DNA from: Candidatus Poribacteria bacterium
Lineage (GTDB): Bacteria; Poribacteria; WGA-4E; GCA-2687025
Reading direction: 5' to 3'
Assembly (NCBI GenBank): GCA_016866785.1
Contig: VGLH01000034.1
Coordinates: 1-33,532 of the forward strand
DNA: 33,532 bases
Position 1 is the first letter of the stretch; every line of letters begins with the position of its first letter. The position numbers and the translations under genes were made by a program. Below the pieces are notes generated by a model. It was not told where the DNA came from, searched no databases, and saw nothing but the letters and a program-made list of their open reading frames with translations. Shown in pieces: positions 5,906 through 30,813 of the stretch.

Positions 5906-5933
5906 CGATCGGTTCCCCACGGTGCGAGGGCGC

Positions 5934-6872
5934 ATGGCTAAGACCGGCATCGTCTATCACGACGACTACCTGCTCCATGACACGGGGTTTGGGCATCCGG
6001 AGCGCCGACAGCGGCTGGAGGCGATCTGGGAGGTGCTTCCTTCCAGTTCCGTGGGCGGCAAACTGGTCAGGATTGTGGCGCGACCGGCGTTGCCCGACGA
6101 GCTCGCATACATCCACTCGGCGAGCCACATCGCCGACATCCGCAAGATTTCGGAGCGAGGAGGCGGGCTCCTCGATTACGACACGCCCATCGATTCCCGG
6201 TCGTACGAGATCGCCCTCCTGTCGGTCGGAGGGGTGTTGTCCGCTGTGGATGCGGTGTTAGGCGGCGAGGTCGATTCCTGCTTCGCGTGCGTGCGCCCGC
6301 CGGGTCACCACGCGACGCCGTCGCGCGGCATGGGGTTCTGTCTGTTCAACAACGTCGCCATCGCGGCGCGCCACGCGCAGAGGCGGCATGGCATCGACCG
6401 CGTGCTCATCGTGGACTGGGACGTGCATCACGGCAACGGCACGCAGGACGCCTTCTACTCGGACGGCTCCGTGTTCTTCTTCTCCGTTCACCAGCACCCG
6501 CTCTATCCGGGAACCGGGATGGCGCAAGAGCGAGGCGATGGCGACGGTTTCGGCGCGACACTGAACGCCCCGCTTCCGGCTCGAAGCGGCGACGAGGACT
6601 ACGTCGCCGTATTCTGGTCGCGTCTCGTTCCCGCCGCGCGGGAGTTCCAGCCGGAGCTCATCCTGATCTCCGCTGGTTTCGATGCCCACGAAGCGGACCC
6701 GTTGGGCGGGATGCGCGTCACGACGCATGGCTTCGGAGCGCTGACGTCCATCGTACGAGAGCTTGCGGACGAGCTCTGCGGCGGACGGATCGTGTCGTCG
6801 CTGGAAGGCGGCTACAGCCTGGACGGGCTGTCATCGTCGGTCGTCGAGCACTTGGCGCGGCTTTCTGAGTGA
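5934..6872 (+). CDS. Class II histone-deacetylase-like zinc amidohydrolase
   Basis: This is a member of the arginase/deacetylase fold family that includes acetoin-utilisation AcuC, acetylpolyamine amidohydrolases and class II HDACs. Such enzymes remove acetyl groups from lysines or polyamines. The 312-residue product shows the full active site: GHPER (20-24), RPPGHHA (121-127, the catalytic His pair), DWDVHHGNGTQ (161-171; Asp163 and His165 zinc ligands), SAGFDAHEADPLGG (246-259; Asp250 third zinc ligand) and LEGGYSLDGL with the transition-state Tyr at 294. A GTG at 5922 is in frame, but GAGGG just before the ATG at 5934, and the usual N-terminus (KTGIVYHDDYLLHD), favour the ATG. It follows the membrane protein by 28 bases. 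The substrate cannot be told from sequence; no acetyl-CoA synthetase is nearby. Confidence 0.94.
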   Translation: MAKTGIVYHDDYLLHDTGFGHPERRQRLEAIWEVLPSSSVGGKLVRIVARPALPDELAYIHSASHIADIRKISERGGGLLDYDTPIDSRSYEIALLSVGGVLSAVDAVLGGEVDSCFACVRPPGHHATPSRGMGFCLFNNVAIAARHAQRRHGIDRVLIVDWDVHHGNGTQDAFYSDGSVFFFSVHQHPLYPGTGMAQERGDGDGFGATLNAPLPARSGDEDYVAVFWSRLVPAAREFQPELILISAGFDAHEADPLGGMRVTTHGFGALTSIVRELADELCGGRIVSSLEGGYSLDGLSSSVVEHLARLSE

Positions 6873-9429: not shown

Positions 9430-10536
9430 ATGCGCGACTTGATTGGCATCGACGACCTGGATCGCGGCGAAATCGAGAGCGTCCTCGACCTCGCGGCGGA
9501 GATGGAAGTGCTCCGCGAAATGGGCTCAGACCTCTGCAAGGGCAAGATCCTCGCTACGATCTTTTACGAACCCAGCACGCGGACGCGCCTTTCGTTCGAG
9601 AGCGCGATGCTTCGGTTGGGCGGGGAGGTGCTCGGGTTCGCCGACCCGCAGACGACCTCGGTCGCCAAGGACGAGACGCTCGCGGACACCGTCCACATGG
9701 TGTGCAACTACTCGGACATCATCGTGATGCGGCACTCGAAGGCAGGAGCGGCGCGGCTCGCCGCCCAGCACTCCGTCGTGCCGATCGTCAATGCCGGTGA
9801 CGACGCCCATCAGCACCCGACCCAATCCCTGACGGACCTGTTCACGATCCGAAGGCTGCGGGGCGACATCTCCGAGCTCACCGTGGGCATCTGCGGCGAT
9901 CTGCGTTTTGGCAGGGCGGCTCACTCGCTCGCCTACGCTCTGGCGATGTTCGGCGCGCGGATCGTGCTGATCGCGCCAACCGGTCTCGAGTTGCCCGAAG
10001 ATGTCTCCTGGCGGCTCGACAACCTCTACGGCGCGAACACGTCACTCGCGGAGACGCCGCGCGACGTGATCGGCGAACTGGACGTTCTCTACGTGAACCG
10101 GCTCCAGAAGGAGCGGCTGCCGGCAGAGCTGGATGCGAACGCCATCAAGGATGTGGCGCGCAGCTACCGGGTCGACGCCGATCTGATGAAGCTCGCCAAG
10201 CCCGACTGCCTGGTGATGCACCCGCTGCCGCGCGTCGATGAGCTGACGCACGACCTCGACGATGACCCACGAGCGGCGTACTTCCAGCAGTCGTCCAACG
10301 GCGTGCCGGTTCGTATGGCGCTGATGGCGATGCTCCTCCGGCGCGTCGACCGCCCCGCCTTCCGCGAGAAGCCGCGTCGCGTCACGGAGCCCTCAGAGCA
10401 TGTGTGCGCGAACCCGGCGTGTGTCACGCAAGCGGAGCCGCGCGTGCGCCCGTTGGTTGAGACGGTCGACGCTGCCCGTGGTGTGAAGTGGTGCGCTTAC
10501 TGTCGATATCTGCTTCCGGACGCCAGCGGTTCGTGA
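9430..10536 (+). CDS. pyrB: Aspartate carbamoyltransferase with C-terminal PyrI-like zinc domain
   Basis: The enzyme condenses carbamoyl phosphate and aspartate, the committed step of pyrimidine synthesis. Residues 1-305 form a normal catalytic chain: YEPSTRTRLSFE (STRTR 49-53, carbamoyl-phosphate loop), SVAK (77-80), HPTQSLTDL (129-137) and HPLPRVDE (264-271). The protein continues to 368 residues. Residues 326-358 contain CANPAC...WCAYC, with Cys326, 331, 355 and 358 at spacing x4, x23, x2. That is the same spacing as the zinc-binding Cys of E. coli PyrI (109, 114, 138, 141), and the text (N-x-x-C-x-x-x-A-E-P) is similar too. The nucleotide-binding half of PyrI is absent and no pyrI follows. 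Fused catalytic/regulatory chains are known, for example in Thermotoga maritima. The GTGA at its 3' end overlaps the next start. Confidence 0.93.
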   Translation: MRDLIGIDDLDRGEIESVLDLAAEMEVLREMGSDLCKGKILATIFYEPSTRTRLSFESAMLRLGGEVLGFADPQTTSVAKDETLADTVHMVCNYSDIIVMRHSKAGAARLAAQHSVVPIVNAGDDAHQHPTQSLTDLFTIRRLRGDISELTVGICGDLRFGRAAHSLAYALAMFGARIVLIAPTGLELPEDVSWRLDNLYGANTSLAETPRDVIGELDVLYVNRLQKERLPAELDANAIKDVARSYRVDADLMKLAKPDCLVMHPLPRVDELTHDLDDDPRAAYFQQSSNGVPVRMALMAMLLRRVDRPAFREKPRRVTEPSEHVCANPACVTQAEPRVRPLVETVDAARGVKWCAYCRYLLPDASGS

Positions 10537-12602
10537 TCCGGGCGCTCCTGCTGGCGACTGTCCTGGTCGCCCCTGGCGTCCGTGCGGAAAGGACGACACC
10601 CATGCCAGCGCAGCCCATGCCGGAGCATCCTCGCCTGCTGTTCACGCCCTCGTCGATTGCCGAGATGAAGGATCGCGTGGCGCGTTACGACTGGGCGCGC
10701 GAACGCTGGAACGCACTCAAACGCCGCGCCGACGACGTGCTCGACGATCCGATCGAGCTCCCGCCGCGCGGCGGCAACTGGTGGCACTGGTACGCCTCGC
10801 CGCGAAACGGAGCCCCACTGAGAACCGGCGAGCAGATCGGTCCCTGGCGCTGGGAGCACGTCAGCCCGGTCGACGGCGAGGTGTTCCTGGGCGATCCGTC
10901 GGAACCGAGCAAGGACTACGACGGCGTCGCCATCTCCGGCGTGCACAGCCGTTACGCCCGGATCGTTCTCGACCTGGGCATCGCGCATGCGATGACCGGC
11001 GAGTCGGGCTACGCCGACAAAGCGCGGGACGTGCTCCTCGCCTACGCGGACAAGTACCTGAGCTATCCGCTCCACACGATCCGGGGCGAGGAGCGCATCG
11101 GCGGCGGTCGCGTGGGCCCCCAGACGCTCGACGAAGCCGTTTGGCTCATCCCAATCTGCCAGGGAGCCGATCTGATATGGGATCGACTCAGCGAACGGGA
11201 TCGAGATGAGATCGGATCGAAGCTGCTGATTCCAGCCGCGAGAGACGTGATCCTCCCGCACGAGATGGGCGTTCACAACATCCAGTGCTGGAAGAACAGC
11301 GCCGTCGGATTGGTCGGGTTCCTGCTCGGCGACGATGACCTGATCCGCGAAGCCATCGACAACCCGACACGAGGCTACCGCCGACAGATGGAGGGCGGCG
11401 TGCTCCCCGACGGCGTCTGGTGGGAAGGCGCGTGGGGATACCACTTCTACACGGTCTCCGCGCTGTGGTCCCTCACGGAAGCGGCGCGGAACTGCGGCAT
11501 CGACCTCTACGGCGACGCGTTCCGACGGATGTTCGAAGCGCCGCTGAACCTCGTCATGCCCGACGGCAAGCTGCCCGCGTTCAACGACAGCGGCACGGTC
11601 GATCTGCGCGGCTCCGCGCCGATCTACGAGCTCTCCTACGCCAGGTACGGCTCTGAACGCTTCGCCGATCTGCTGAGCGCGAGCGGCGCGACCAGCGACT
11701 ACGCTCTGTGGTTCCGCTTAGGCGACCTTCCTGCCGCAACGGCGCGGACCTGGACGAGCGAAAACCACACCGGCTCCGGGTACGCCGTCTTGGCGCGCGG
11801 CGAGGGAGCCGACGCGACATGGGTCTGCCTGAAGTACGGTCCGCACGGCGGCGGACACGGGCACCCGGACAAGTTGAACCTGGCGCTCTACGCCCACGGG
11901 GAACTGATCGGGCTCGATCCAGGAACCGCGCGCTACGGTCAGCCGATCCAGGCGGGATGGTACCGAACGACCTTCGCGCACAACACGCTCACGGTCGATC
12001 AGACATCGCAGAAGCCGGCGGAAGGGCGCTGTCTGGCGTTCGGCAGTTCAGACGGAGTGGACTTCGCCGTCACGCAGGCAGGTGACATCTACGACGGCGT
12101 TCGCTTCATGCGGTCGGTTGCGCTGGTGTCAGCCGGCTTGATCGTCGTGCATGACCGCATCGACTGCGACCGAGATCGTACCCTCGACCTCGCGATGCAC
12201 CTGGAGGGCTCCTGGGAGCAAGTGCCTGCGGGAGAACCGTGGTCAGTTCCCGAAGCCGATGGCTACCGCTACTTGCGGGATTCCACGACGCGCACGAGCG
12301 AAACGACCACGCTCGGACTCCGCGTGAGCGATGCGCTGCGGGCAAGCGTCCTGCTCGCGTCCGGCGAGCCAACCGAGATCATCACAGCGACCGGGGTCGG
12401 TGACCACACCGAAGATCGCGTGCCGGTGGTGGTGTTCCGTCGTCGTGGGAACCGGATGTCGCTGGCGTGGTGCGTTGCGCTGAACGGCGCACCGAAGTCG
12501 CTGAAGTCGGAGGGAACCATCGTCGAGGCGGTCGATGCGACCGGGAAACGCTGGCGGCTGGACTTCGGCGGAGACAGCGTCGCCGTCCTCGATGCGCCCT
12601 AG
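10533..12602 (+). CDS. Secreted heparinase II/III-like polysaccharide lyase
   Basis: The protein is predicted to be exported and to act on uronic-acid-containing polysaccharides. From the GTG at 10533 (overlapping the pyrB stop as GTGA) it has 689 residues with a clear signal peptide ending near GVRA-ER. An earlier in-frame GTG at 10488 would add 15 residues. Residues ~30-400 look like the alpha/alpha toroid seen in alginate and heparin lyases (DEAVWLIPICQGADLIWD, MGVHNIQCWKNSAVGL, WEGAWGYHFYTVSALW). Residues ~420-560 carry the heparinase II/III beta domain: GPHGGGHGHPDKLNL, LDPGTARYG and TTFAHNTLTVDQ. The His-rich GGGHGHPDKL and AHNTL motifs are the usual catalytic/metal region. The C-terminal part is beta-rich. 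The actual substrate is unknown. Its overlap with pyrB is positional rather than functional as far as can be seen. Confidence 0.88.
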   Translation: MIRALLLATVLVAPGVRAERTTPMPAQPMPEHPRLLFTPSSIAEMKDRVARYDWARERWNALKRRADDVLDDPIELPPRGGNWWHWYASPRNGAPLRTGEQIGPWRWEHVSPVDGEVFLGDPSEPSKDYDGVAISGVHSRYARIVLDLGIAHAMTGESGYADKARDVLLAYADKYLSYPLHTIRGEERIGGGRVGPQTLDEAVWLIPICQGADLIWDRLSERDRDEIGSKLLIPAARDVILPHEMGVHNIQCWKNSAVGLVGFLLGDDDLIREAIDNPTRGYRRQMEGGVLPDGVWWEGAWGYHFYTVSALWSLTEAARNCGIDLYGDAFRRMFEAPLNLVMPDGKLPAFNDSGTVDLRGSAPIYELSYARYGSERFADLLSASGATSDYALWFRLGDLPAATARTWTSENHTGSGYAVLARGEGADATWVCLKYGPHGGGHGHPDKLNLALYAHGELIGLDPGTARYGQPIQAGWYRTTFAHNTLTVDQTSQKPAEGRCLAFGSSDGVDFAVTQAGDIYDGVRFMRSVALVSAGLIVVHDRIDCDRDRTLDLAMHLEGSWEQVPAGEPWSVPEADGYRYLRDSTTRTSETTTLGLRVSDALRASVLLASGEPTEIITATGVGDHTEDRVPVVVFRRRGNRMSLAWCVALNGAPKSLKSEGTIVEAVDATGKRWRLDFGGDSVAVLDAP

Positions 12603-21468: not shown

Positions 21469-22869
21469 TCATCCGACTGCGCGGACCTTGTCCTCGTCGG
21501 CGTCTAGACCGCGCAGGAAGCCGTGGCAGGCGTCCGTCAACTCGCGAACGCGGTCGGCGTTGCCGTCGGCGACGTTGGTCGTCTCGCAGGGGTCGGCGGA
21601 CAGGTCGTAGAGCTCCGGCGGCACAGCGCCGTCCTGCCCCAGCACGAGCGACCATCGCCCGTCCGTGACGCTGATCTTGGATCCGTCGCGTCCGCGCCCG
21701 ATCTGCAGCGCCTGAGCGGATACGGCGATGTCACGATCCCACGACGCATCACGGTGCAGCAGCGGTACAAGGGACTTGCCGTGAGCCACGTTCGGCACGG
21801 GGCGTCCTGCCAGTTCCAGGATCGTCGGCATGATGTCCGGCGGCTGGACGAGCGCCGAAACGCGCCTGCCGCCTTGGATGCCGGGCACGCGGATGAGCAG
21901 CGGGATGTGGGACACCTCGCGGTAAAGGGGCCAGCTACCCCGGTCGTCGTGGTCGCAGATGTTGGACTTCCCCGTGCGGTTGTGCTCGCCGAGGTACATG
22001 CCATGGTCCGCCATGAAGAAGACGGCGGTGCGGTCGGCGATGCCTGTGTCCTCGATCATGCGCAGCACTCTGCCGACGTGCTTGCTGACGAGCGTCACTT
22101 CGCCCGCGTAGTGCGCTCGAAGGTTCCGCAGCTCCTCGGGCGTGTAGTCCGACGCGGGCCCGTAGTTGGGATGGAACATCGGGACGCCATCGTAGTCGGG
22201 ATCGTAGAGCGCGACCATGTACTCGGGTGGGTCCCAGGGCTCGTGAACGTCGAAGCAGTCCACCCACAGAAAAAAGAGCTCCGTCTGGTAGTTGTGCTCC
22301 AGCCATTGACTCGCCAATCGGCACGTCTTGGCGACGAACCGATCCTCCTCGGAGTGCCACAAATGATGGTTCTGCCAGGCGTGCACGTTGGCGAGGACGC
22401 CGTCGAATGGGAAGGGCCGCTGACGGGTCTTCGCGTTGGGCATCTTCTCGACGACGGGATGGTTCATCCACGTCATCGGCGTGTCGCCCTCCTGTCCCCG
22501 CGTCCAGACGGCTCCGTGGAATCCTCGGTCGAAGTTGTAGTCCGCGCGCATCATGTGGGGCGTGTCGATGATGAGTTGGCAGATGTATCCCGCGCCTGAA
22601 AGCTGCGGCGCAATGACGACCGCGCGGGGATCGAGCGGCTTCCACCCGTAGAAGGGGAACCCGTACCTGCCCGTGAACCAGTCGGTTCGCGTTGGGATCG
22701 TCGGAAAGGACGAGACATAGCAGTTGTCGAAGCTGACGGCGGTCGAAGCGAAGGCGTCGAGCTCCGGCGTCTTGATCCACGGGTTGCCGTGAGCGCCCAG
22801 GTGGTCGTAGCGGAAGGTATCGGAGACGATGACGATGATGTTGAGGTCGTCGGGGATGGTTCCAGGCAT
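21469..22869 (-). CDS. Sulfatase-fold hydrolase lacking the formylglycine Cys/Ser
   Basis: The 466-residue protein belongs to the alkaline-phosphatase/sulfatase superfamily: NIIVIVSDTFRYDHLGAHGN (first metal site, Asp17), FMADHGMYLGEHN (second metal Asp-His), and a C-terminal subdomain with ELYDLSADPCETTNVA, typical of sulfatases. The active-site motif, normally C/S-x-P-x-R-x4-TG, reads TIPTRTDWFTG at residues 57-67. Thr57 stands where the residue modified to formylglycine should be, while Pro, Arg and TG are kept. There is no signal peptide. The ATG at 22869 has AGGAGGG just upstream; an earlier ATG at 22947 is less likely. It could be a phosphodiesterase-type enzyme with a Thr nucleophile, a sulfatase by another mechanism, or inactive. 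Confidence 0.85.
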   Translation of the reverse strand: MPGTIPDDLNIIVIVSDTFRYDHLGAHGNPWIKTPELDAFASTAVSFDNCYVSSFPTIPTRTDWFTGRYGFPFYGWKPLDPRAVVIAPQLSGAGYICQLIIDTPHMMRADYNFDRGFHGAVWTRGQEGDTPMTWMNHPVVEKMPNAKTRQRPFPFDGVLANVHAWQNHHLWHSEEDRFVAKTCRLASQWLEHNYQTELFFLWVDCFDVHEPWDPPEYMVALYDPDYDGVPMFHPNYGPASDYTPEELRNLRAHYAGEVTLVSKHVGRVLRMIEDTGIADRTAVFFMADHGMYLGEHNRTGKSNICDHDDRGSWPLYREVSHIPLLIRVPGIQGGRRVSALVQPPDIMPTILELAGRPVPNVAHGKSLVPLLHRDASWDRDIAVSAQALQIGRGRDGSKISVTDGRWSLVLGQDGAVPPELYDLSADPCETTNVADGNADRVRELTDACHGFLRGLDADEDKVRAVG

Positions 22870-22935
22870 GTGCAGCCCTCCTGGGCGCACCATATCAGTG
22901 CGAATGTCACCGATCAAGGCGTCGAGCGTCGTTGC

Positions 22936-22964
22936 TTGAAAACGCACCGGCGCGGTGCTAGCCT
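22936..22964 (+). promoter_or_regulatory. Putative promoter with palindromic spacer, upstream of the 1167-residue secreted protein
   Basis: TTGAAA (22936-22941) and TAGCCT (22959-22964) are separated by exactly 17 bases. The spacer holds GCACCG-GCG-CGGTGC (22944-22958), a perfect 6-bp inverted repeat. The -35 is good (5 of 6 to TTGACA) and the -10 weak (3 of 6). The palindrome would be well placed as an operator, and it lies in the divergent interval between 22869 and 23009. Confidence 0.4.
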
Positions 22965-23008
22965 AGCTTCGGCACAACAGAGCTCGCATTCCACGGGATT
23001 CGATCGGG

Positions 23009-26000
23009 ATGATGATGACCCTACTTGGCACGGTTCTCTCCCTGGCTTACGCCGCCCCTGCACCCGCCGTCAACGAATGGGCAGCCGGCTACGCGGACAC
23101 GCTCGCCGACTTCGTCGCTGATTTCGATCGAGCCGCCGCCGAGAACACGCTCGAAACGAGCGTGTCGAACTCGCAGAGCGGCGGCATCGCGATGCCATCC
23201 ATCTTTCAGCATCCGCGCGAAGCAGGAGACGCCCGACTCACCTACGAGGTGGCTCTGCCGGAAGATGGCGGCGAAGCGCGTCTCATCCTGGCGTTTGCGC
23301 TGGGTCTTCGCGACGGAGTTCGTCTCGACGATCCGAAGACGCCCGTCGACGGCGTGCTCTGCGGCATCAGCGTCGACGGTCATCGCGTCTTCGAAGCGAT
23401 CGTCCACGAGCCGGGCTGGCGCGAGCACTCCGTCGATCTGACCCCCCTCGCCGGACGAACCGTTCAACTCACGTTCACGGCGAACAATAACGGAACGCCG
23501 AACTACGACTGGCTGCTCTGGGGCAATCCGCGCCTGTATCGGCTGTGGACCGAGACCAAGAAAACCGCGCCTTCGCGCCTGTCAGCGGGCTTGGCGCTGC
23601 TGACGGGGCATGACGGAAGGGCGTCGGTCCGGCGCTTCCTGTTGGACCGCGCCGAGGCGGTCGAGGACGCCGTCGATGACCTGGCATCGGAATGGCGCGG
23701 CGAGTCGATTCAGCGGATCGAGCTCTTCGCGTTCCTGCCCAAGGTAGCGATTCGGAGCCTCTCGTCGGCTCAGCATCTGCTGTTTGCGGGCAAGGACTAC
23801 ACGGTGCGGTGCGCCGTGGAGAACGTCGGCGACGCGCCGGTCGAAGATTTCCACCAGATATCGGCGGGAATCAGCGGCGCGGCGCTCCGCCGGGGAAGGG
23901 CGGAACGGTCCATCGGCTCGCTCGACATCGGCGAGGTCGCCCAGCTCTCGTGGCACATGCGCGGAAGCCAACGACGCGACTCCGTCGATGTCACCGTGTC
24001 GCTGAAGAGCGCCCTCGACGGCATCGTGGGCACGCCCACGCGGACAGCATCGCTGCGGTTCCAGCGAGCGCTGCCTCCGCTGCCTGCGCGCACGTCGAAC
24101 GAAGTGCGCAGCGTCATCCAGTCGGACTACGCGCTGCTGGAAAACTCCAACGTGCGGATCGCCTTCGTCGAGAACGACGGGGCGTTCCACCACTTCGTGC
24201 TGTTCGCCCAGAAGGGCAACCACCTTCAGCAGGTCGCCACGTCGATGCCGATCTCTCGCGTGGTCTACCTGGACAGGCACGGCGAGGCGCAATCGCTCGA
24301 CTTGGTCCCGACGCGGATCACGATGGGGGGTTCCAGCGACGGCGATGCGTCCCTGCTGTTGTCATCGCAGCAGACGGACGACGACGGCGTCGTGTGGGAC
24401 TTCGAGGCGGCTTTCACGCTCTACGACGAGTCGAAGCGCATTCGGACACGGTACCGTATCCGTCCGAGCGAGAAGCGACGAGTCCTCCATTTCGCGGGTC
24501 CGATGCTCCGCGTCGGCGATGGAACCGATGGCGACAAGAAGGAGTTCGCGCTTTTCCCCGGGCTGGAGTTCCTGGAAGGCGACGAGGTCTCATCGAGCAC
24601 GCGCGATGCTGCACCCCCGATCAACACGCGACTCGTGCCGCATCCGTACAAGATCACGATCCCGATCATGGCGGTGCAGCAGGGGGAGACGACGACGGGC
24701 GTGCTGTGGGACCCGCTGTCGCCGTGGGGACGCGATGGCAAGGGTCTGTCGCCGTTGTTCGCGTCGCCGAACTGGTTCGACGGTCAGGACAACCACCTCA
24801 TCGGCGTGTTTCTCCCGACGGTACCGGACTGGGTGGGCGAGAACGAGGTGCTCAGCCGCGAAGGGTACGTGGTATCGGAACTGCCGCTCGAGCTGCGCGC
24901 GCAGATCTTCACCGACTCGCGTGGGACCATTCTCGACATCCCGGACATCTGGGTTGATGCTTACGGATACCCGAAGCCGGAGGATGCGCCGCGCTCCGAC
25001 GAGGAAGAGGTAGCCCTGTCGCGGCACGGGTTCCTCGTGTCCGCGTGGGACGAGGAGACGAGGAAGTCGCGGCACTGCGTGGACTGGGCTCCGGCGAACG
25101 CTCCGGGGTTCGCGACGCTTCTCTGGTATGACTACCTCGCCACCGGCGACCCATCGGCGCGTGAGCGCGTCGAATTGATCGCTCGTCAGACGCTCGAAGA
25201 GCAAGGGCCCGCCGGGCTGGCGTCTCCGGCGAACTGCCACATTCTGCGGTGGGAGTTCCCCTTCTACTACGGACACCTGCCGGGAGCCATCGTCGGCGCG
25301 CGACAGCAGGTCCAGGGGATGATCGCGTCTCAGAAAGACGACGGAAGCTGGCGGTTCAACCCGACCAGCGACCAGACGCGGTCGCTGGGCGAGGCGGGCG
25401 ATGCCGTGATCGGGACGTGCGCCGGCAACGCGCTACGCGTGCTCAAGTTCGCTCGCGTGACCGGCGACGAACGCGCGCTTCGTTCCGGGATCAAGGCGCT
25501 GGAGTTCATGGATCGGTTCGCGGTGCCTCGTGGGGCTCAGGGATGGGAGTGTCCGCTCTACGAACCGGACATCCTCGCTGCCGCCTATGCCGTCGGTGCG
25601 TATCTCGAAGCGCACGCCATCACAGGCGAAGCCGTTTACCTGGAGAAGGCGGAATACTGGGCGCGGACCGGGTTGCCGTTCCTCTACTTCTGGAACGTGC
25701 CGGACCGACCCGGGATGCGGTTCGGCTCCATACCGGTATTCGGGACGACGTTCTACACACACTCCTGGTTCGGTGTGCCGGTCCAGTGGAACGGCTTGGT
25801 CTACGCCTACTATGTCCAGCGTTTGTCGCGGTTCTCGGACTACCCGTGGCGGCAGGTCGCGGAAGGCGTGACGATGAGTGCGATGCACCAGCAGTGGACG
25901 GACGGCAAGCTCAAGGGCACCTACCCCGACGGGTTCTACGGGTTCTGCACCGAGGGCAAGGGTCCGCACATCAACCCGGAAGACATCATGGTGAACCTGT

Positions 26001-26512
26001 TCGCCGTGCGCGGTCACGACCCGGATATCTCGACCGGCATCGTGACCACGGAAGCCGGGGAACGGATCCACGTCAGTTCCGGCGCGCGAGTGAGCGACGT
26101 GGAGACCCGGAACGAGCAGCTTCGGTTCACACTGTCCGGGTTGGGGCGAGAAGACGCTCACGTGCTGGTTGGGAACCTCTCTCGGATGACCGGGGCGCGC
26201 GTCGACGGCGAGCCGATCGAGGAGCGCGGATCCCTCGCAGAGGGCCCTGGGTGGCTCTACGACGCCGAGCAAGGCTTGGCGTTCCTGCGCGTGCCGCAAG
26301 AGCGGGAGTCGCACGTCGTCGTGCTGGATTGGTTCATCGAGGCTGAGGAACCGGAGAGCGCCGTACCCTCGGAGTCCCAGGAGACGGACGAGCCGTCCGC
26401 CGACGTCGGCGAGCCGGATGCGCCGCACGACGAGCCAGCGCCGATGGATGTGGACGAAGTCGAGGACTCGCCAGACGAAACCCCCACTGACGGCGACCCG
26501 TTGAACGAGTAG
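23009..26512 (+). CDS. Very large secreted protein with probable beta-sandwich and alpha/alpha-toroid domains; family not recognised
   Basis: The 1167-residue product starts with a signal-like segment (TLLGTVLSLAYAAPAPA). Residues ~25-180 look like a carbohydrate-binding beta sandwich (SGGIAMPSIFQHP, WREHSVDLTPLAG, NYDWLLWGNPRLYRL). A region of about 250-350 resembles an Ig/CARDB-like domain (VRCAVENVGDAPVEDFHQI). Residues ~365-655 are beta-rich, possibly a super-sandwich. About 670-995 has the spacing of an (alpha/alpha)6 toroid (NAPGFATLLWYDYLATGD, AGNALRVLKFARVTGD, DILAAAYAVGAYLEAHAITG). This layout is seen in several glycan hydrolases and lyases. The last ~55 residues are an acidic, Pro-rich tail. 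I recognised no catalytic signature, so the enzyme class is open. Three adjacent ATGs (23009, 23012, 23015) are possible starts. A surface or periplasmic glycan-processing role is inferred from the context. Confidence 0.75.
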   Translation: MMMTLLGTVLSLAYAAPAPAVNEWAAGYADTLADFVADFDRAAAENTLETSVSNSQSGGIAMPSIFQHPREAGDARLTYEVALPEDGGEARLILAFALGLRDGVRLDDPKTPVDGVLCGISVDGHRVFEAIVHEPGWREHSVDLTPLAGRTVQLTFTANNNGTPNYDWLLWGNPRLYRLWTETKKTAPSRLSAGLALLTGHDGRASVRRFLLDRAEAVEDAVDDLASEWRGESIQRIELFAFLPKVAIRSLSSAQHLLFAGKDYTVRCAVENVGDAPVEDFHQISAGISGAALRRGRAERSIGSLDIGEVAQLSWHMRGSQRRDSVDVTVSLKSALDGIVGTPTRTASLRFQRALPPLPARTSNEVRSVIQSDYALLENSNVRIAFVENDGAFHHFVLFAQKGNHLQQVATSMPISRVVYLDRHGEAQSLDLVPTRITMGGSSDGDASLLLSSQQTDDDGVVWDFEAAFTLYDESKRIRTRYRIRPSEKRRVLHFAGPMLRVGDGTDGDKKEFALFPGLEFLEGDEVSSSTRDAAPPINTRLVPHPYKITIPIMAVQQGETTTGVLWDPLSPWGRDGKGLSPLFASPNWFDGQDNHLIGVFLPTVPDWVGENEVLSREGYVVSELPLELRAQIFTDSRGTILDIPDIWVDAYGYPKPEDAPRSDEEEVALSRHGFLVSAWDEETRKSRHCVDWAPANAPGFATLLWYDYLATGDPSARERVELIARQTLEEQGPAGLASPANCHILRWEFPFYYGHLPGAIVGARQQVQGMIASQKDDGSWRFNPTSDQTRSLGEAGDAVIGTCAGNALRVLKFARVTGDERALRSGIKALEFMDRFAVPRGAQGWECPLYEPDILAAAYAVGAYLEAHAITGEAVYLEKAEYWARTGLPFLYFWNVPDRPGMRFGSIPVFGTTFYTHSWFGVPVQWNGLVYAYYVQRLSRFSDYPWRQVAEGVTMSAMHQQWTDGKLKGTYPDGFYGFCTEGKGPHINPEDIMVNLFAVRGHDPDISTGIVTTEAGERIHVSSGARVSDVETRNEQLRFTLSGLGREDAHVLVGNLSRMTGARVDGEPIEERGSLAEGPGWLYDAEQGLAFLRVPQERESHVVVLDWFIEAEEPESAVPSESQETDEPSADVGEPDAPHDEPAPMDVDEVEDSPDETPTDGDPLNE

Positions 26513-26537
26513 CCTTCTCCCCGCGTTTTCACACATG

Positions 26538-26559
26538 CGAGCCGGGACGGACCGGCTCG
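26538..26559 (+). terminator. Hairpin after the large secreted protein gene
   Basis: A perfect 8-bp stem, CGAGCCGG / CCGGCTCG, with a 6-base loop (GACGGA) lies 26 bases past the stop codon at 26512. There is no T-run. It lies before the dockerin gene start at 26614, so it may separate the two or only attenuate. Confidence 0.5.
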
Positions 26560-26613
26560 AATGCGGCGCTGGGTCCGTACTCCGGGCCCGCTCTCCGTTC
26601 GGGAGTCAACGCA

Positions 26614-28158
26614 GTGAGTAGACGGCAAGCGCTCCTCCTCTCGATTGCCTGCTGGTGCTCGGTCGCCGGTGTCGTGTTCGCCGCGCAATCGGTCGACGAA
26701 CAGACGGTTTCGCTCGTCCAGAAGACGCCTACCCAGGAAGCGGGCCCCTTCTTCCTCTTCGGCAAACCGTTTCCGCTGCAAAAGGGCTTCAGCGTCCGAC
26801 TGACGATGGACGTGACCCACCAGGTTCGCGTCGATGTCGGAGACCGGAGTCTGTCGTTCCAAGGGGTCGGAGGCGACGTAGCCGGGTCCGGCTTGGTCGC
26901 GCTTCAGGGCGGGGAGATCTATCAAGTCGTCGAAACGTACACGTTCCGGGCGACGGTGGACTCGATCTTCATCCGTGGCGAGTTCCCGGTCGAGGTCCAG
27001 GCGAAGTGGAACCTGTTGGCGCTCGATACCGGCGTTTACGCTTTCGCCATCAGCGGACACGCGCGCGACCTAACCGTGAACGTCACCGGCGACATTGCTG
27101 GCGGCACGGAGCTCAAGGCGCTGGGTTCCACCGTGGACGTCGAGGTCGAGACGATCCGCGACATTCCCGGCGGAGAGAAGCTCGTCTACGGCGGTTCGTT
27201 TACAGGCTTCCTCGACCGCACGTCGACGCTGACGTACACCGGCAAGGTCGTTCCCGACTGGGACGTGAACTCGGACGGCAGCGTCAACATCGTCGATCTG
27301 GTGCTGGTGGCGCGGAAGTTCGGCGAGGTCGGAGTCAAGACGCGCGAGGACGTGAACGGCGACACGGTCGTCAACATCATCGACCTGGTGCTCGTGGCGC
27401 GGCACTTCGGCGAGTCGCTGATTCTGCCGGCTGCGGCTCCTGCGCTGGCAGCCGATGCCGAGGCGTCGGTTGGGCTCGGCTATCGGCGGCTCGGGGACGG
27501 TTCGATGCAAGTGGACGTACAAGCCAACAGCCTGACGCGCCTTGCGGGAGCGGATGTCACGTTGGCGTTCGACCCGTCGGCGTGGTCGCTGGCCGATGCG
27601 CGCGCAGGAGCCGCGTTCTCGACGCCGTTTTCGTGGCGGCTGCCTGCGTCGGATGGAATGGCGCGACTGCTGACCGTTGCGTTGCCCGTCGATGGCGACA
27701 CGACGCACTCAGGAGAGGTCGCTCGCTTCACGTTCCGACCGCTGACGCCGAACGCGGCAGTCAAAGGTTTCTCGCTGCGGCAAGTCGCGCTGAGCGACGC
27801 GCGAGGGCGGATCGTCCTAACGCGGATGGAGCCTCCAGCGCGGTTCGCACTGCCGACCGGTGCGCAACGGTTAGCGGTGGGACAGAACTACCCGAATCCG
27901 TTCAACCCGGAGACGTGGATTCCCTTCTCGATCTCCGAGCCGACTTCCGTGCGGATCGACATCTTCTCCGAAGCGGGCGACCTCGTCCGCACGCTCGACC
28001 TCGGCACGCTCCCTGCCGGCGCGTACGCCTCGCCTGACCGCGCCGTCCGCTGGGACGGGGAGAACGACTCGGGTGAACCCGTCGCCAGCGGCGTGTACGT
28101 CTATCGTCTGACGACGGGAAGCAACAGCCAGACTCGACGGATGGTCGTGGTCAAGTAA
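26614..28158 (+). CDS. Secreted dockerin-type protein with C-terminal PNPFNPETW sorting-type domain
   Basis: The 514-residue product (GTG start) has a signal peptide ending near VVFA-AQS. Residues ~30-205 are beta-rich and unrecognised (GFSVRLTMDVTHQVRVDVG). Residues ~216-268 hold a type I dockerin: two calcium-loop repeats, DVNSDGSVNIVDLVLVARKF and DVNGDTVVNIIDLVLVARHF, each followed by GE. Residues ~280-400 look cohesin-like (MQVDVQANSLTRLAGADVTL, then AFDPS). The C-terminal ~90 residues carry QNYPNPFNPETWIPFSI, VRIDIFSEAGDLVRTLDLG, AVRWDGENDSGEPVASGVY and RRMVVVK, the same domain type as at 18440. Dockerins bind cohesins; having both types suggests self-assembly or a surface complex. The first 12 residues are basic and hydrophobic, as expected for export. 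Confidence 0.9.
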   Translation: MSRRQALLLSIACWCSVAGVVFAAQSVDEQTVSLVQKTPTQEAGPFFLFGKPFPLQKGFSVRLTMDVTHQVRVDVGDRSLSFQGVGGDVAGSGLVALQGGEIYQVVETYTFRATVDSIFIRGEFPVEVQAKWNLLALDTGVYAFAISGHARDLTVNVTGDIAGGTELKALGSTVDVEVETIRDIPGGEKLVYGGSFTGFLDRTSTLTYTGKVVPDWDVNSDGSVNIVDLVLVARKFGEVGVKTREDVNGDTVVNIIDLVLVARHFGESLILPAAAPALAADAEASVGLGYRRLGDGSMQVDVQANSLTRLAGADVTLAFDPSAWSLADARAGAAFSTPFSWRLPASDGMARLLTVALPVDGDTTHSGEVARFTFRPLTPNAAVKGFSLRQVALSDARGRIVLTRMEPPARFALPTGAQRLAVGQNYPNPFNPETWIPFSISEPTSVRIDIFSEAGDLVRTLDLGTLPAGAYASPDRAVRWDGENDSGEPVASGVYVYRLTTGSNSQTRRMVVVK

Positions 28159-28188: not shown

Positions 28189-29376
28189 ATGGATGCGCGC
28201 GACCGCACGGTCATCCTACTAGGCGCTGGCGCGTCGAGCGCGTCTGCGCACTGTCTTCCGGTGATGAAGGGGTTCTTCCAGGAAGCTTGCGGCATCAAGC
28301 CTACGCCCGAACTCAAGACAGGGCTTGAGTGGCTCTACGGAAGAGAGACGCAGCCTGAGGACATGAATCTTGAGGAGGTCATCGCCTTTCTCGACATGTC
28401 CGAACAGCATCGCGAAGGGGCAACCTTCAAGGAGCTGGATGCAACAGACCACCTGGTCCGTCTGCGCCGGGAGCTTGACCGTTTCCTCCGCCGACGCCTC
28501 ACTGTGGAGTCACCGTGGCACTCCTTAGACCCTCACAGCGTGGGTTACGGCCAGACACCGCGCAAGTTCGGCGACAGCCTGCATTCCGCTCTCTTCGATG
28601 CACATCTGCGCCGCGACAACGACACGTTCAGGATAAACACGCTCGTGACGCTGAACTACGACCTTGTTGCCGACTACGCCCTCAGATGCTTGGAGACGTG
28701 GCGCAGCTGGCGCCGCTCCGGAGGAGTTCTCCCAAGCAGAATGGAGCTTCAGGCCATTCTGAGAGGCACCAGACGATCGCCAGAGCACTGGGACGCGAAC
28801 ACCACGCCACCTGGATGGTATCTGAAGCTCCATGGATCACTGGACTGGGTGTCTTGCCTGAATCCTGCCTGCCCGCACGGCCGCCGGTGCTTCAGCGTGG
28901 AGTTCGACAGACAGCCAGGACACGATGACTGGTACGGTGTCGGCGTGCTTCCCGCCGACTACAATCAGAGCCTGCCATGTGTCTGTGGTCATGCGTACCG
29001 GCTCGTCATCGTCCCGCCGACGTATGCCAAACGGTACGAGGGTATGCCGATGATTGAGCGCGAGTGGCGTCTGGCAGTTCAGCAGCTTCAGGGCGCCAAG
29101 CGTGTCATTGTAGTTGGTGTGTCGTTCGCGCCTTCGGACGTACGGCTTGCATGGCTGGTACGATACGGGCTGCTGGGCGCCTCTGCGGACGGGATCCAGA
29201 TCGACCTTGTGTACCGGTGTCAAGATAATGCTGACCCCATGGAGCACGACGTCTACGCGCGGGCCCGAGCGCTTGTGCCACACGCTACAATCCGGCCGTT
29301 CCCGAACGGTCTGAGGGCGTACCTGGAGAGCGAAGGCCTGCTCGAACAGTGGAACAAGCGCTCGGCTGACGCCTAG
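28189..29376 (+). CDS. SIR2-like protein, possible NAD-consuming defence effector
   Basis: The 395-residue protein has the SIR2 layout: VILLGAGASS at the N-terminus (GAGAS 12-16, NAD loop), TLNYDLVADYAL (Asn156, Tyr157, Asp158), LKLHGSLDW with the catalytic-type His215, then possible zinc ligands C223-x4-C228 and C264-x-C266, and a late VIVVGVSFAPSD. Stand-alone SIR2-like proteins of this 'HGS' type are common in anti-phage modules, where they deplete NAD+. Others are deacylases or of unknown role. The gene sits alone between the dockerin gene and a sulfatase-fold gene, 30 bases from the former. By eye its codon use is less GC-rich than its neighbours. No second defence gene (TIR, STK, AVAST NTPase, Argonaute) is adjacent. 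Calling it defence is an inference. Confidence 0.8.
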   Translation: MDARDRTVILLGAGASSASAHCLPVMKGFFQEACGIKPTPELKTGLEWLYGRETQPEDMNLEEVIAFLDMSEQHREGATFKELDATDHLVRLRRELDRFLRRRLTVESPWHSLDPHSVGYGQTPRKFGDSLHSALFDAHLRRDNDTFRINTLVTLNYDLVADYALRCLETWRSWRRSGGVLPSRMELQAILRGTRRSPEHWDANTTPPGWYLKLHGSLDWVSCLNPACPHGRRCFSVEFDRQPGHDDWYGVGVLPADYNQSLPCVCGHAYRLVIVPPTYAKRYEGMPMIEREWRLAVQQLQGAKRVIVVGVSFAPSDVRLAWLVRYGLLGASADGIQIDLVYRCQDNADPMEHDVYARARALVPHATIRPFPNGLRAYLESEGLLEQWNKRSADA

Positions 29377-29419
29377 CCAAGGTGCGATCGACCGACACGC
29401 TGCCTGCCCGTGAATCGCC

Positions 29420-29448
29420 TTTCCGTCACCAGACCGATCGTCTATGAT
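29420..29448 (+). promoter_or_regulatory. Putative promoter of the second sulfatase-fold gene
   Basis: TATGAT at 29443-29448 is a good -10 (5 of 6). The 17-base spacer places a weak -35, TTTCCG, at 29420-29425. It lies 36 bases before the ATG at 29485, which fits that start and argues against an earlier GTG at 29410. Confidence 0.4.
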
Positions 29449-29484
29449 GCCGTCGAGTCGTCCTGCCCGACAGGAGAACGCTCG

Positions 29485-30813
<1,329 letters not shown>

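Follow-up and report, generated by a model that had tools for sequence, protein, structure and literature searches.

A probable sugar-cutting enzyme of an unnamed sequence family in Poribacteria, perhaps directed at rhamnose-containing sugars

Background

Uronate lyases are usually partnered by enzymes of families GH88 or GH105, and GH127 comprises cysteine-dependent beta-L-arabinofuranosidases. The layout of PL27, as set out in one report (PMC8377490), is a beta sandwich followed by an (alpha/alpha)6 toroid. Here we describe a gene from a window of poribacterial origin (the whole 33,532-nucleotide stretch that was analysed) whose product combines the same two kinds of domain in its predicted core. 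The gene probably encodes a sugar-cutting enzyme, and perhaps its target is rhamnose-containing sugars. The two-domain shape of the protein is already known, and its sequence lies outside every family named in the libraries that were searched. Among the openly licensed papers listed in literature searches, judged by their titles and the beginnings of their abstracts, none describes this protein family.

Results

Gene, reading frame and N-terminus

The gene extends from position 23009 to 26512 on the + strand as one uninterrupted open reading frame of 1167 codons for amino acids. Its codon-position GC (0.67/0.47/0.83) resembles that of most of its neighbours and homologues are 42-57% identical in a 12-row alignment, which together indicate that the 1167-residue frame of the original prediction is real. 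That prediction also held the protein to be secreted and expressed from its own regulated promoter, and neither proposal is supported. Residues 1-22 (23009..23074, + strand) form a modestly hydrophobic N-terminus of low model confidence that contains no lysine or arginine, so that no basic residue precedes the hydrophobic stretch, unlike in the clearly secreted neighbours, and judged from its sequence the secretion of the window protein is doubtful. The orthologues of the sponge clade are unlikely to be secreted; they lack a normal signal peptide and have in its place a short, conserved motif at the N-terminus together with a long acidic linker. A scan of positions 22700-26800 for promoter sites of the sigma70-like type found 0, compared with 0.4 expected from shuffled sequence.

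Poribacteria carry bacterial microcompartment (BMC) genes, as stated in PMC5087111. The 32-residue N-terminus of one ortholog matched only itself in three genomes (E up to 10), and the BMC matches were distant from the gene: the separation was 0.58 Mb or more in three single-contig genomes, and in the window's genome the matches fell on different contigs. Targeting of this odd N-terminus to a bacterial microcompartment is not supported.

Domain organization

AlphaFold2 modeling of the whole protein gave a pLDDT of 88, and the core modeled alone reached a pLDDT of 94.0 with a pTM of 0.94. Following the N-terminus, the model places a beta sandwich at residues 23-181 (23075..23551, + strand), which may be a carbohydrate-binding module and which resembles a domain present in other proteins of the same class. 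A long beta region spans residues 190-636 and includes a supersandwich at residues 365-636 (24101..24916, + strand) that is supported by both the model and fold matches. It is followed by an alpha/alpha toroid of 12 helices at residues 641-1000 (24929..26008, + strand), likewise supported, and the protein ends in a disordered, proline-rich acidic tail at residues 1115-1167 (26351..26509, + strand) that contains 10 D, 10 E and 10 P and no K or R. The N-terminal sandwich, long beta region, toroid and tail expected by the original prediction are thus all present in the predicted structure, the toroid in a confident model. Two further domains, absent from that prediction, were observed: an Ig-like domain at residues 246-353 (23744..24067, + strand), seen in the model and accompanied by a sub-cut-off CARDB match and by NEW3-like matches in relatives, and a small C-terminal beta sandwich at residues 1008-1108 (26030..26332, + strand), seen in the model.

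Sequence family

A Pfam scan of the protein (E up to 1) gave two matches, both below cut-off, and an NCBIfam scan gave none. Phmmer with the protein found no match among PDB sequences, and hmmsearch with a 49-row profile returned 11 PDB rows at E up to 10, none of them PL27 and all at chance level. At the thresholds used in these Pfam, NCBIfam and PDB sequence searches the family therefore has no name, as had been proposed.

Conserved residues and candidate active site

Conservation was read from an alignment of 49 rows, made up of the window's own sequence together with 48 of the 80 loci that were fetched, from which rows at least 80% identical to a kept row were left out, a broken locus (L079) was dropped, and in which the start of one locus (L032) was moved by hand. 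With toroid loops assigned to faces by reading the helix order rather than from coordinates, positions conserved at 95% or more made up 35 of 153 in the six loops of face A versus 1 of 24 in the face-B loops (Fisher p 0.03). A stretch of the supersandwich, residues 503-552 (24515..24664, + strand), which contains E520, E526, S528, S529, R541 and K548, has 19 of its 50 positions conserved to this degree, compared with 2-3% of positions in the N-terminal, Ig-like and C-terminal domains (4 of 144 in the N-terminal sandwich, residues 23-181).

Thirteen tabulated polar core residues are identical, from Poribacteria to archaea, in every row that has a letter at the position. E520 and E526 are invariant (47 of 47 rows with letters), as are Y893, R541 and R841. 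All 49 rows share E847 (codon 25547..25549, + strand), a candidate catalytic acid, D854 (25568..25570, + strand) and D974 (25928..25930, + strand), a candidate catalytic base, and the three lie in loops assigned by helix order to one toroid face, in keeping with the conserved acids anticipated in the toroid groove. H689, H744, H596 and K548 are each replaced in one to three rows. Cysteine catalysis of the GH127 type was rejected, as the core cysteines all fall below 93% conservation (of the 49 rows, 42 have C743 and 39 have C848).

Fold comparisons

The modeled core has a known carbohydrate-enzyme layout. Among the matches listed, the folds closest to it belong to the kinds of carbohydrate enzyme that had been guessed (GH88, PL26, PL27 and GH94/GH65/GH116 types), and the supersandwich and the toroid each match such enzymes at Z of about 19-21. 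The supersandwich (365-636) aligned with 8x1b at Z 21.4 (236 residues, 2.7 A) and with the PL26 structure 5xqj at Z 19.8 (249 residues, 3.3 A). The toroid aligned with GH88 structures 1vd5 and 3wiw at Z 20.6-20.7 over 306-309 residues and 4.0-4.1 A (3wiw: Z 20.7, 306 residues, 4.0 A), and about equally well, at Z 19-20, with cellobiose 2-epimerase and mannose isomerase.

Superposition of both domains together was poorer. The PL27 enzyme BACCELL_00875 (5no8/5nok) ranked second and third in the Foldseek search with the core (E 1.3e-8 and 3.2e-8; TM 0.33/0.36, rmsd 12.6), and an alignment across its two domains (469 residues, Z 18.9, rmsd 7.3 A) was the least poor two-domain superposition listed, with PL26 at about 18-21 A and others at about 20 A. 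Hydrolases and phosphorylases with a sandwich followed by a toroid (8ho7, 4ktr, 9vmj, 2eae) appeared within the best 50 Foldseek rows at rmsd >20 A. By hhalign, PL26-like proteins scored 90% over 122 sandwich columns, a weak profile similarity that is partial only. A cycloalternan-forming enzyme ranked first in the core search but was set aside at an rmsd of 27 A, as were LacZ beta-galactosidases and alpha-2-macroglobulin/complement-type proteins, which scored high in a Foldseek search with the whole protein as many-beta-domain matches (rmsd 21-37 A).

Distribution and genomic neighbourhood

Of 82 genomes sampled from the window's poribacterial class, 80 carry all or part of the gene, usually as one copy; it is class-wide and not a patchy accessory. 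Outside Poribacteria, two peptide patterns found relatives in Paenibacillus, Thermofilales archaea, Verrucomicrobia and others, a distribution that is a lower bound. Viral contigs gave 14 pattern matches with no true relative among them, and plasmids gave no match to the window DNA or to the Paenibacillus core protein.

Within the window the gene lies near two sulfatases, a heparinase II/III-like protein and an LRR-legume-lectin protein, consistent with the glycan-related neighbourhood of the original prediction. The adjoining downstream gene (26614..28158, + strand) encodes a dockerin I domain, a weak cohesin match, a FlgD_ig/T9SS-like tail and an ordinary-looking signal peptide, and four other loci (L031, L032, L033 and L079) likewise have a relative of it downstream.

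Four genomes of Paenibacillus and two of Thermofilales hold 8 copies of the gene between them, of which 6 have a match to GH78 (alpha-L-rhamnosidase) within 5 kb; 0.12 would be expected, and 200,000 random placements, assumed independent, never gave more than 4. With one copy per genome the count was 4 of 6 (0.08 expected, random maximum 3). GH78 is common in Paenibacillus, with 5-12 matches a genome; two of the six nearby matches are partial, one scoring 29 bits in G145 and the other lying in a short frame in G147, and the copies in G146 (nearest GH78 18 kb away) and G149 have no GH78 link. The genes that flank one of the Paenibacillus copies are GH106, GH78 and one whose closest match is L-rhamnonate dehydratase. 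The relatives behind this rhamnose link are only 27-31% identical, and the genome of the window has a single GH78 match, below cut-off.

A different neighbour is found in the sponge-type Poribacteria, where GH172 adjoins the gene in 55 of 58 genomes of one family. Of the 81 poribacterial genomes with any match, 62 have GH172 no more than 3.5 kb away, and in the window's own family it is beside the gene in 0 of 6 genomes. In sponge Poribacteria, the MR_MLE neighbour that was tested is a galactonate dehydratase and gives no pointer to rhamnose. The nearest GH88/GH105 match to a Paenibacillus copy is 9.9 kb off, and none was above cut-off in G149, G150 (both draft genomes), G017 and G000; a GH88 match was found in two other Poribacteria (110 bits in G041; 27 bits from joined pieces in G025).

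Discussion

We tentatively propose that the gene belongs to an unnamed family of glycoside-cleaving enzymes, likelier hydrolases than lyases, with a rhamnose-containing glycan as the substrate. The idea of a new glycan-active family built on a sandwich plus toroid survives as a predicted activity, since the toroid is present, the sequence is claimed by none of the families in the libraries, and conserved acids lie in loops assigned to one toroid face. The invariant loops of that face together with the sandwich stretch would form a pocket for the end of a glycan chain, in which a pair of carboxylates, most likely E847 with D974 and possibly E520/E526, would hydrolyse the glycosidic bond while R541, R841, Q844, Y893, Q926 and Q962 hold the sugar. 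The substrate would most likely be a rhamnose-containing glycan or oligosaccharides derived from it, the putative partners being GH78/GH106 rhamnosidases in Paenibacillus and Thermofilales and GH172, a family of alpha-D-arabinofuranosidases and alpha-D-fructofuranosidases, in the sponge-type Poribacteria, where the enzyme is probably intracellular.

A hydrolase is preferred because GH88/GH105, the usual partner of uronate lyases, is distant from the Paenibacillus copies and gave no match above cut-off in four genomes that carry the gene. An exo-acting polysaccharide lyase resembling PL27 or PL26 has a smaller yet appreciable chance of being correct; it would act by beta-elimination at a uronic acid beside rhamnose and leave an unsaturated uronate, with Tyr893, His689/His744 or Lys548 transferring the proton and Arg, Gln or Asn neutralising the carboxylate. 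The two-domain alignment with PL27, the recurrence of PL26 entries and the hhalign similarity all agree with this chemistry, as do the invariance of Y893, R541 and R841 and the rhamnosidase neighbours, which are compatible with Rha-GlcA or rhamnogalacturonan substrates. However, the Foldseek superposition on PL27 is poor and has no sequence match to accompany it, the histidines and K548 vary, and GH88/GH105 is missing within 9.8 kb of the Paenibacillus copies and, above cut-off, from four genomes that carry the gene.

It is improbable that the protein performs neither hydrolysis nor elimination and is instead a phosphorylase, or an epimerase of the uronyl C5- or sugar 2-epimerase type. The toroids of cellobiose 2-epimerase and mannose isomerase score near GH88, the Foldseek alignments of cellobiose and glucosylglycerol phosphorylases extend over both sandwich and toroid (rmsd about 26), and two relatives have C5-epim_C matches, but these reach 13-17 bits against a cut-off of 23.3, the epimerase rows cover the toroid alone, and the conserved histidines vary. 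The extra beta domains, and the dockerin/cohesin-like protein that adjoins the gene in the window's family, would suit a non-catalytic glycan-binding or structural protein that retains an enzyme fold, although the 13 polar residues kept from Poribacteria to archaea form an active-site pattern, which makes this a very remote prospect.

A broader reading, which we regard as rather unlikely, is that of a new CAZyme family serving as a core intracellular enzyme of Poribacteria. It would process a rhamnose and/or D-arabinofuranose glycan, either internal or imported, that is central to poribacterial life, rather than scavenge host glycans outside the cell. This reading is suggested by the presence of the gene in nearly all sampled genomes of the class, usually in one copy, by the lack of a normal signal peptide among sponge-clade orthologues, and by the position of the gene beside the only GH172 detected in the genome.

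If the glycoside-cleaving prediction is correct, the gene provides an assayable candidate for an unnamed enzyme family spanning bacteria and archaea, to which cultured Paenibacillus strains offer a practical entry point. It would also be a glycan enzyme retained throughout a class whose members are mostly uncultured and often live in sponges, and the identity of its substrate would hint at what Poribacteria eat or build.

Comparison with known carbohydrate enzymes

The GH78 alpha-L-rhamnosidases and GH172 (DUF2961) are genomic neighbours in different clades, and the window protein has no Pfam match to either. The listed chains of GH88 unsaturated glucuronyl hydrolase (1vd5, 3wiw) contain the toroid without a supersandwich, and no Glyco_hydro_88 domain was found in the protein (Pfam, E up to 1). 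The supersandwich of PL26 exo-rhamnogalacturonan lyase (5xq3/5xqj) superposes and a toroid comes after it, but the two domains taken together align at only about 20 A; its PcRGLX domains were not found in the Pfam scan of the protein (E up to 1), and PF21345 was unmatched in the window's genome. PL27, the L-rhamnose-alpha-1,4-D-glucuronate lyase, differs from the window protein in domain packing (rmsd 7-13 A), has no sequence match to it and lacks its extra N-terminal, Ig-like and C-terminal domains, but shares with it the order of an N-terminal sandwich and then a toroid, as well as a likeness in rhamnose-linked biology.

Gene and predicted structure

The gene at 23009-26512 (+) is an uninterrupted frame of 1167 codons with a codon-position GC of 0.67/0.47/0.83, the same as most of its neighbours, and its protein has one match in its own genome (4.35 Mb, 291 contigs). 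The original prediction placed the protein in no recognised family, and the searches agree: Pfam gave only sub-cut-off matches, to CARDB (E 0.065) and NAGLU_C (0.14), neither an NCBIfam scan nor a phmmer search of the PDB with the window protein found a match, and 11 PDB rows from a 49-row profile (E 0.3-2.9) were rejected as chance matches.

An AlphaFold2 model of the full length, made from the 49-row alignment, had a mean pLDDT of 88.4 and a pTM of 0.84, and the core alone (residues 360-1112) reached 94.0 and 0.94. The N-terminal sandwich, long beta region and toroid that had been predicted all appear in the model, which comprises an N-terminal beta sandwich (residues 23-181), an Ig-like domain (246-353), a supersandwich (365-636), a toroid of twelve helices (641-1000), a small C-terminal sandwich (1008-1108) and a disordered tail (1115-1167). 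The window protein is a real, confidently modelled member of a sequence family without a name; we do not claim PL26, PL27, GH88 or GH127 as its home. A domain resembling residues about 45-180 recurs, often twice, in other proteins of 1000-1300 amino acids from this class of Poribacteria (for example at loci L119:249-4118 and L120:829-4020).

Distribution and phylogeny

The closest homologues among named genomes carry the title Candidatus Poribacteria, which makes a poribacterial origin of the window very probable. At E <= 0.001, 83 of the 145 genomes searched matched the window protein, including 81 of 82 within the class (G000-G081). Since G009 had no match and that of G011 covers part of the N-terminal domain only, the enzyme is present at least in part in 80 of the 82; the G004 copy is a fragment at a contig end. 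Among the matches listed, with scoring restricted to each genome's best candidates, class genomes usually had one copy; G007 had a second. Outside the class 2 of 63 genomes matched, weakly, and the two genomes of the same phylum outside the class had no match at this threshold. In-frame stops interrupt the ortholog at L079 (KatS3mg115), where frames are split and the G001 match contains 9 TGA; this may reflect a pseudogene, an assembly error or recoding.

A wider search of 84,980 species genomes with two peptide patterns found 88 relatives, from which 80 loci were kept. Sixty-five are poribacterial by title, and the other 15 comprise five Paenibacillus loci from four strains, two from Thermofilales archaea, three of Verrucomicrobia type (L092, L097, L110) and single loci from Terriglobia, Actinomycetota, Calditrichota, Zipacnadia and one MAG. 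No relatives were found in the viral contigs and plasmids searched. The core tree placed the 35 poribacterial rows on one side of a single branch (support 100/99) and clustered the window with three other rows (100/100); judged from this tree alone, the sequences are consistent with vertical inheritance within Poribacteria.

Poribacterial gene neighbourhoods

The glycan-related neighbourhood that had been proposed is borne out by two sulfatases without an evident signal peptide at the called start (21469-22947, minus strand; 29410-30813, plus strand), a heparinase II/III-like protein whose start resembles a signal peptide (10488-12602), an LRR/legume-lectin/DUF642 protein, and a protein combining dockerin I, a weak cohesin and a FlgD_ig/T9SS-like tail (26614-28158). 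This dockerin/FlgD_ig protein lies downstream of the enzyme in the window, as a relative does at four other loci, and is the recurring neighbour in the window's own family (f1). The window also encodes a histone-deacetylase-domain protein (5922-6872) and a weakly SIR2-like protein (28189-29376).

A DUF2961/GH172 gene lies on the upstream side of the enzyme in 53 of 81 loci (representative PF11175 E 2e-75). GH172 was within 3.5 kb of the enzyme in 62 of the 81 poribacterial genomes with any match: 55/58 in the sponge-type family f2, 6/9 in f6, 1/3 in f8, and none in f1 (0/6), f3 (0/2), f4 (0/1) or f7 (0/2), with G022, where GH172 sits next to a 5' piece split off from the enzyme, scored as a miss. 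Among the f2 genomes, 56 of 58 had exactly one GH172 match. GH172 includes alpha-D-arabinofuranosidases and alpha-D-fructofuranosidases (PMC10115798, PMC8605356). Further upstream, many sponge-type loci carry two xylose-isomerase-like proteins and a galactonate dehydratase, the latter called from one representative over the NCBIfam cut-off.

Amino terminus and location

The protein had been described as secreted, a claim its start does not bear out: it has three Met, a modest hydrophobic run and no K/R, unlike the clearly secreted neighbours, in which K/R precede a strong hydrophobic run. Among 66 poribacterial rows, some with miscalled or truncated starts, the maximal 9-residue hydropathy near the start was <= 2.33, and 51 had no K/R ahead of the maximum. 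Ten non-poribacterial rows with intact starts gave 2.2-3.4, with 1-5 K/R ahead of it; L100, L101, L102, L106 and L110 were set aside as miscalled or truncated. Where a signal peptide would sit, many sponge-clade orthologs (including L037, L055 and L104) begin with the conserved motif M-x-T-x-F-Q-x-x-L, and a long acidic linker, about 30-40% D/E, comes after it. A 32-residue N-terminus of this clade matched only itself in the three genomes searched. The weak hydropathy, missing K/R and acidic-linker starts make secretion of the sponge-clade orthologs appear unlikely.

Conserved face and candidate active site

A position was called conserved if at least 40 rows carry a letter there and 95% or more of these are identical, and toroid loops were sorted to faces by helix order. 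The six loops of one toroid face hold 35 conserved positions in 153, the remaining loops 1 in 24 (Fisher p 0.03) and the toroid helices 25 in 183. Within the sandwich, conservation is 4/137 in residues 365-502, 19/50 in 503-552 and 10/84 in 553-636; the N-terminal (4/144), Ig-like (3/103) and C-terminal (2/96) domains contain few such positions.

Q775, R841, Q844, E847, D854, Y893, Q926, Q962 and D974 are invariant in 49/49 rows, so that the conserved acidic residues expected in the toroid are found as E847, D854 and D974. E520, E526 and R541 (47/47 rows with letters) and N612 (48/48) are likewise invariant, whereas L095 or L106, both divergent, account for every replacement of H689 (46/48), H744 (47/48) and K548 (46/47), and H596 (45/48) is replaced in L106 and two poribacterial rows. 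Invariant carboxylates set against replaceable histidines and lysine favour carboxylates as the probable acid-base catalysts; a pair of them, whose identity we infer, would hydrolyse the substrate.

Rhamnosidase neighbours and probable activity

A match to GH78, the alpha-L-rhamnosidase family, lies within 5 kb of the enzyme in six of eight Paenibacillus and Thermofilales copies (2.3, 2.5, 0.9, 2.5, 1.1 and 1.3 kb; two of the six are partial). The chance expectation is 0.12 copies, with a maximum of 4 in 200,000 random placements; counting one copy per genome, four of six have such a neighbour (expected 0.08, maximum 3). The placement test used 12, 6, 10, 5, 2 and 1 GH78 per genome, with the 14 pieces of G147 joined to 10 and one G149 match below cut-off. 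Four of the five GH78 matches of G148 are within 8 kb of the enzyme, and the sole one of G150 adjoins it; the G146 and G149 copies have none within 5 kb, the nearest in G146 being at 18 kb. P. mendelii also has a shorter, third copy (L173:8855-10900, profile positions 122-606), preceded by GH106 and GH78; the gene after it has L-rhamnonate dehydratase as its best NCBIfam match (342 bits, against a cut-off of 393). Proteins of 577-580 amino acids, one of them GH99-like below cut-off, also lie near Paenibacillus copies (L099:8764-10503, L168:8530-10260).

The window protein is very probably a carbohydrate-active enzyme, and most likely a glycoside-cleaving one of familiar sandwich-plus-toroid architecture, acting on a rhamnose-containing glycan. 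The link to rhamnose is somewhat favoured for the family, and less so for the window protein itself. The enzyme might instead be a uronate lyase, close to which GH88/GH105 is expected. Such genes occur in G041 and, as a weak match, in G025; however, the nearest to any Paenibacillus copy is 9.9 kb away, and they are absent or sub-cut-off in G149, G150, G017 and G000. This distribution is evidence against a lyase, not proof, and we lean towards a hydrolase.

Comparison with known folds

In a Foldseek search of the PDB with the core, the PL27 enzyme BACCELL_00875 ranked 2-3 (E 1.3e-8 and 3.2e-8), PL26 entries recurred at E about 1e-6, and phosphorylases, 1,2-alpha-L-fucosidase, GH116, GH36 and GH88 were also listed. 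In VIA-align, the supersandwich matched the galactosaminidase 8x1b with Z 21.4 (236 residues, 2.7 A). The similarity to glycan enzymes, together with poor two-domain superposition, shows a core of known layout whose modelled domain packing is unlike the solved cases. Both domains align with PL27 over 469 residues (Z 18.9), but are packed otherwise in the core model (7.3 A; Foldseek TM 0.33/0.36 to 5no8). The PL26 supersandwich superposes (Z 19.8, 249 residues, 3.3 A), yet the two domains together fit PL26, and dextran dextrinase, only at 18-23 A. The modelled toroid resembles that of GH88 (Z 20.7, 306 residues, 4.0 A), though GH76 and epimerases score alike.
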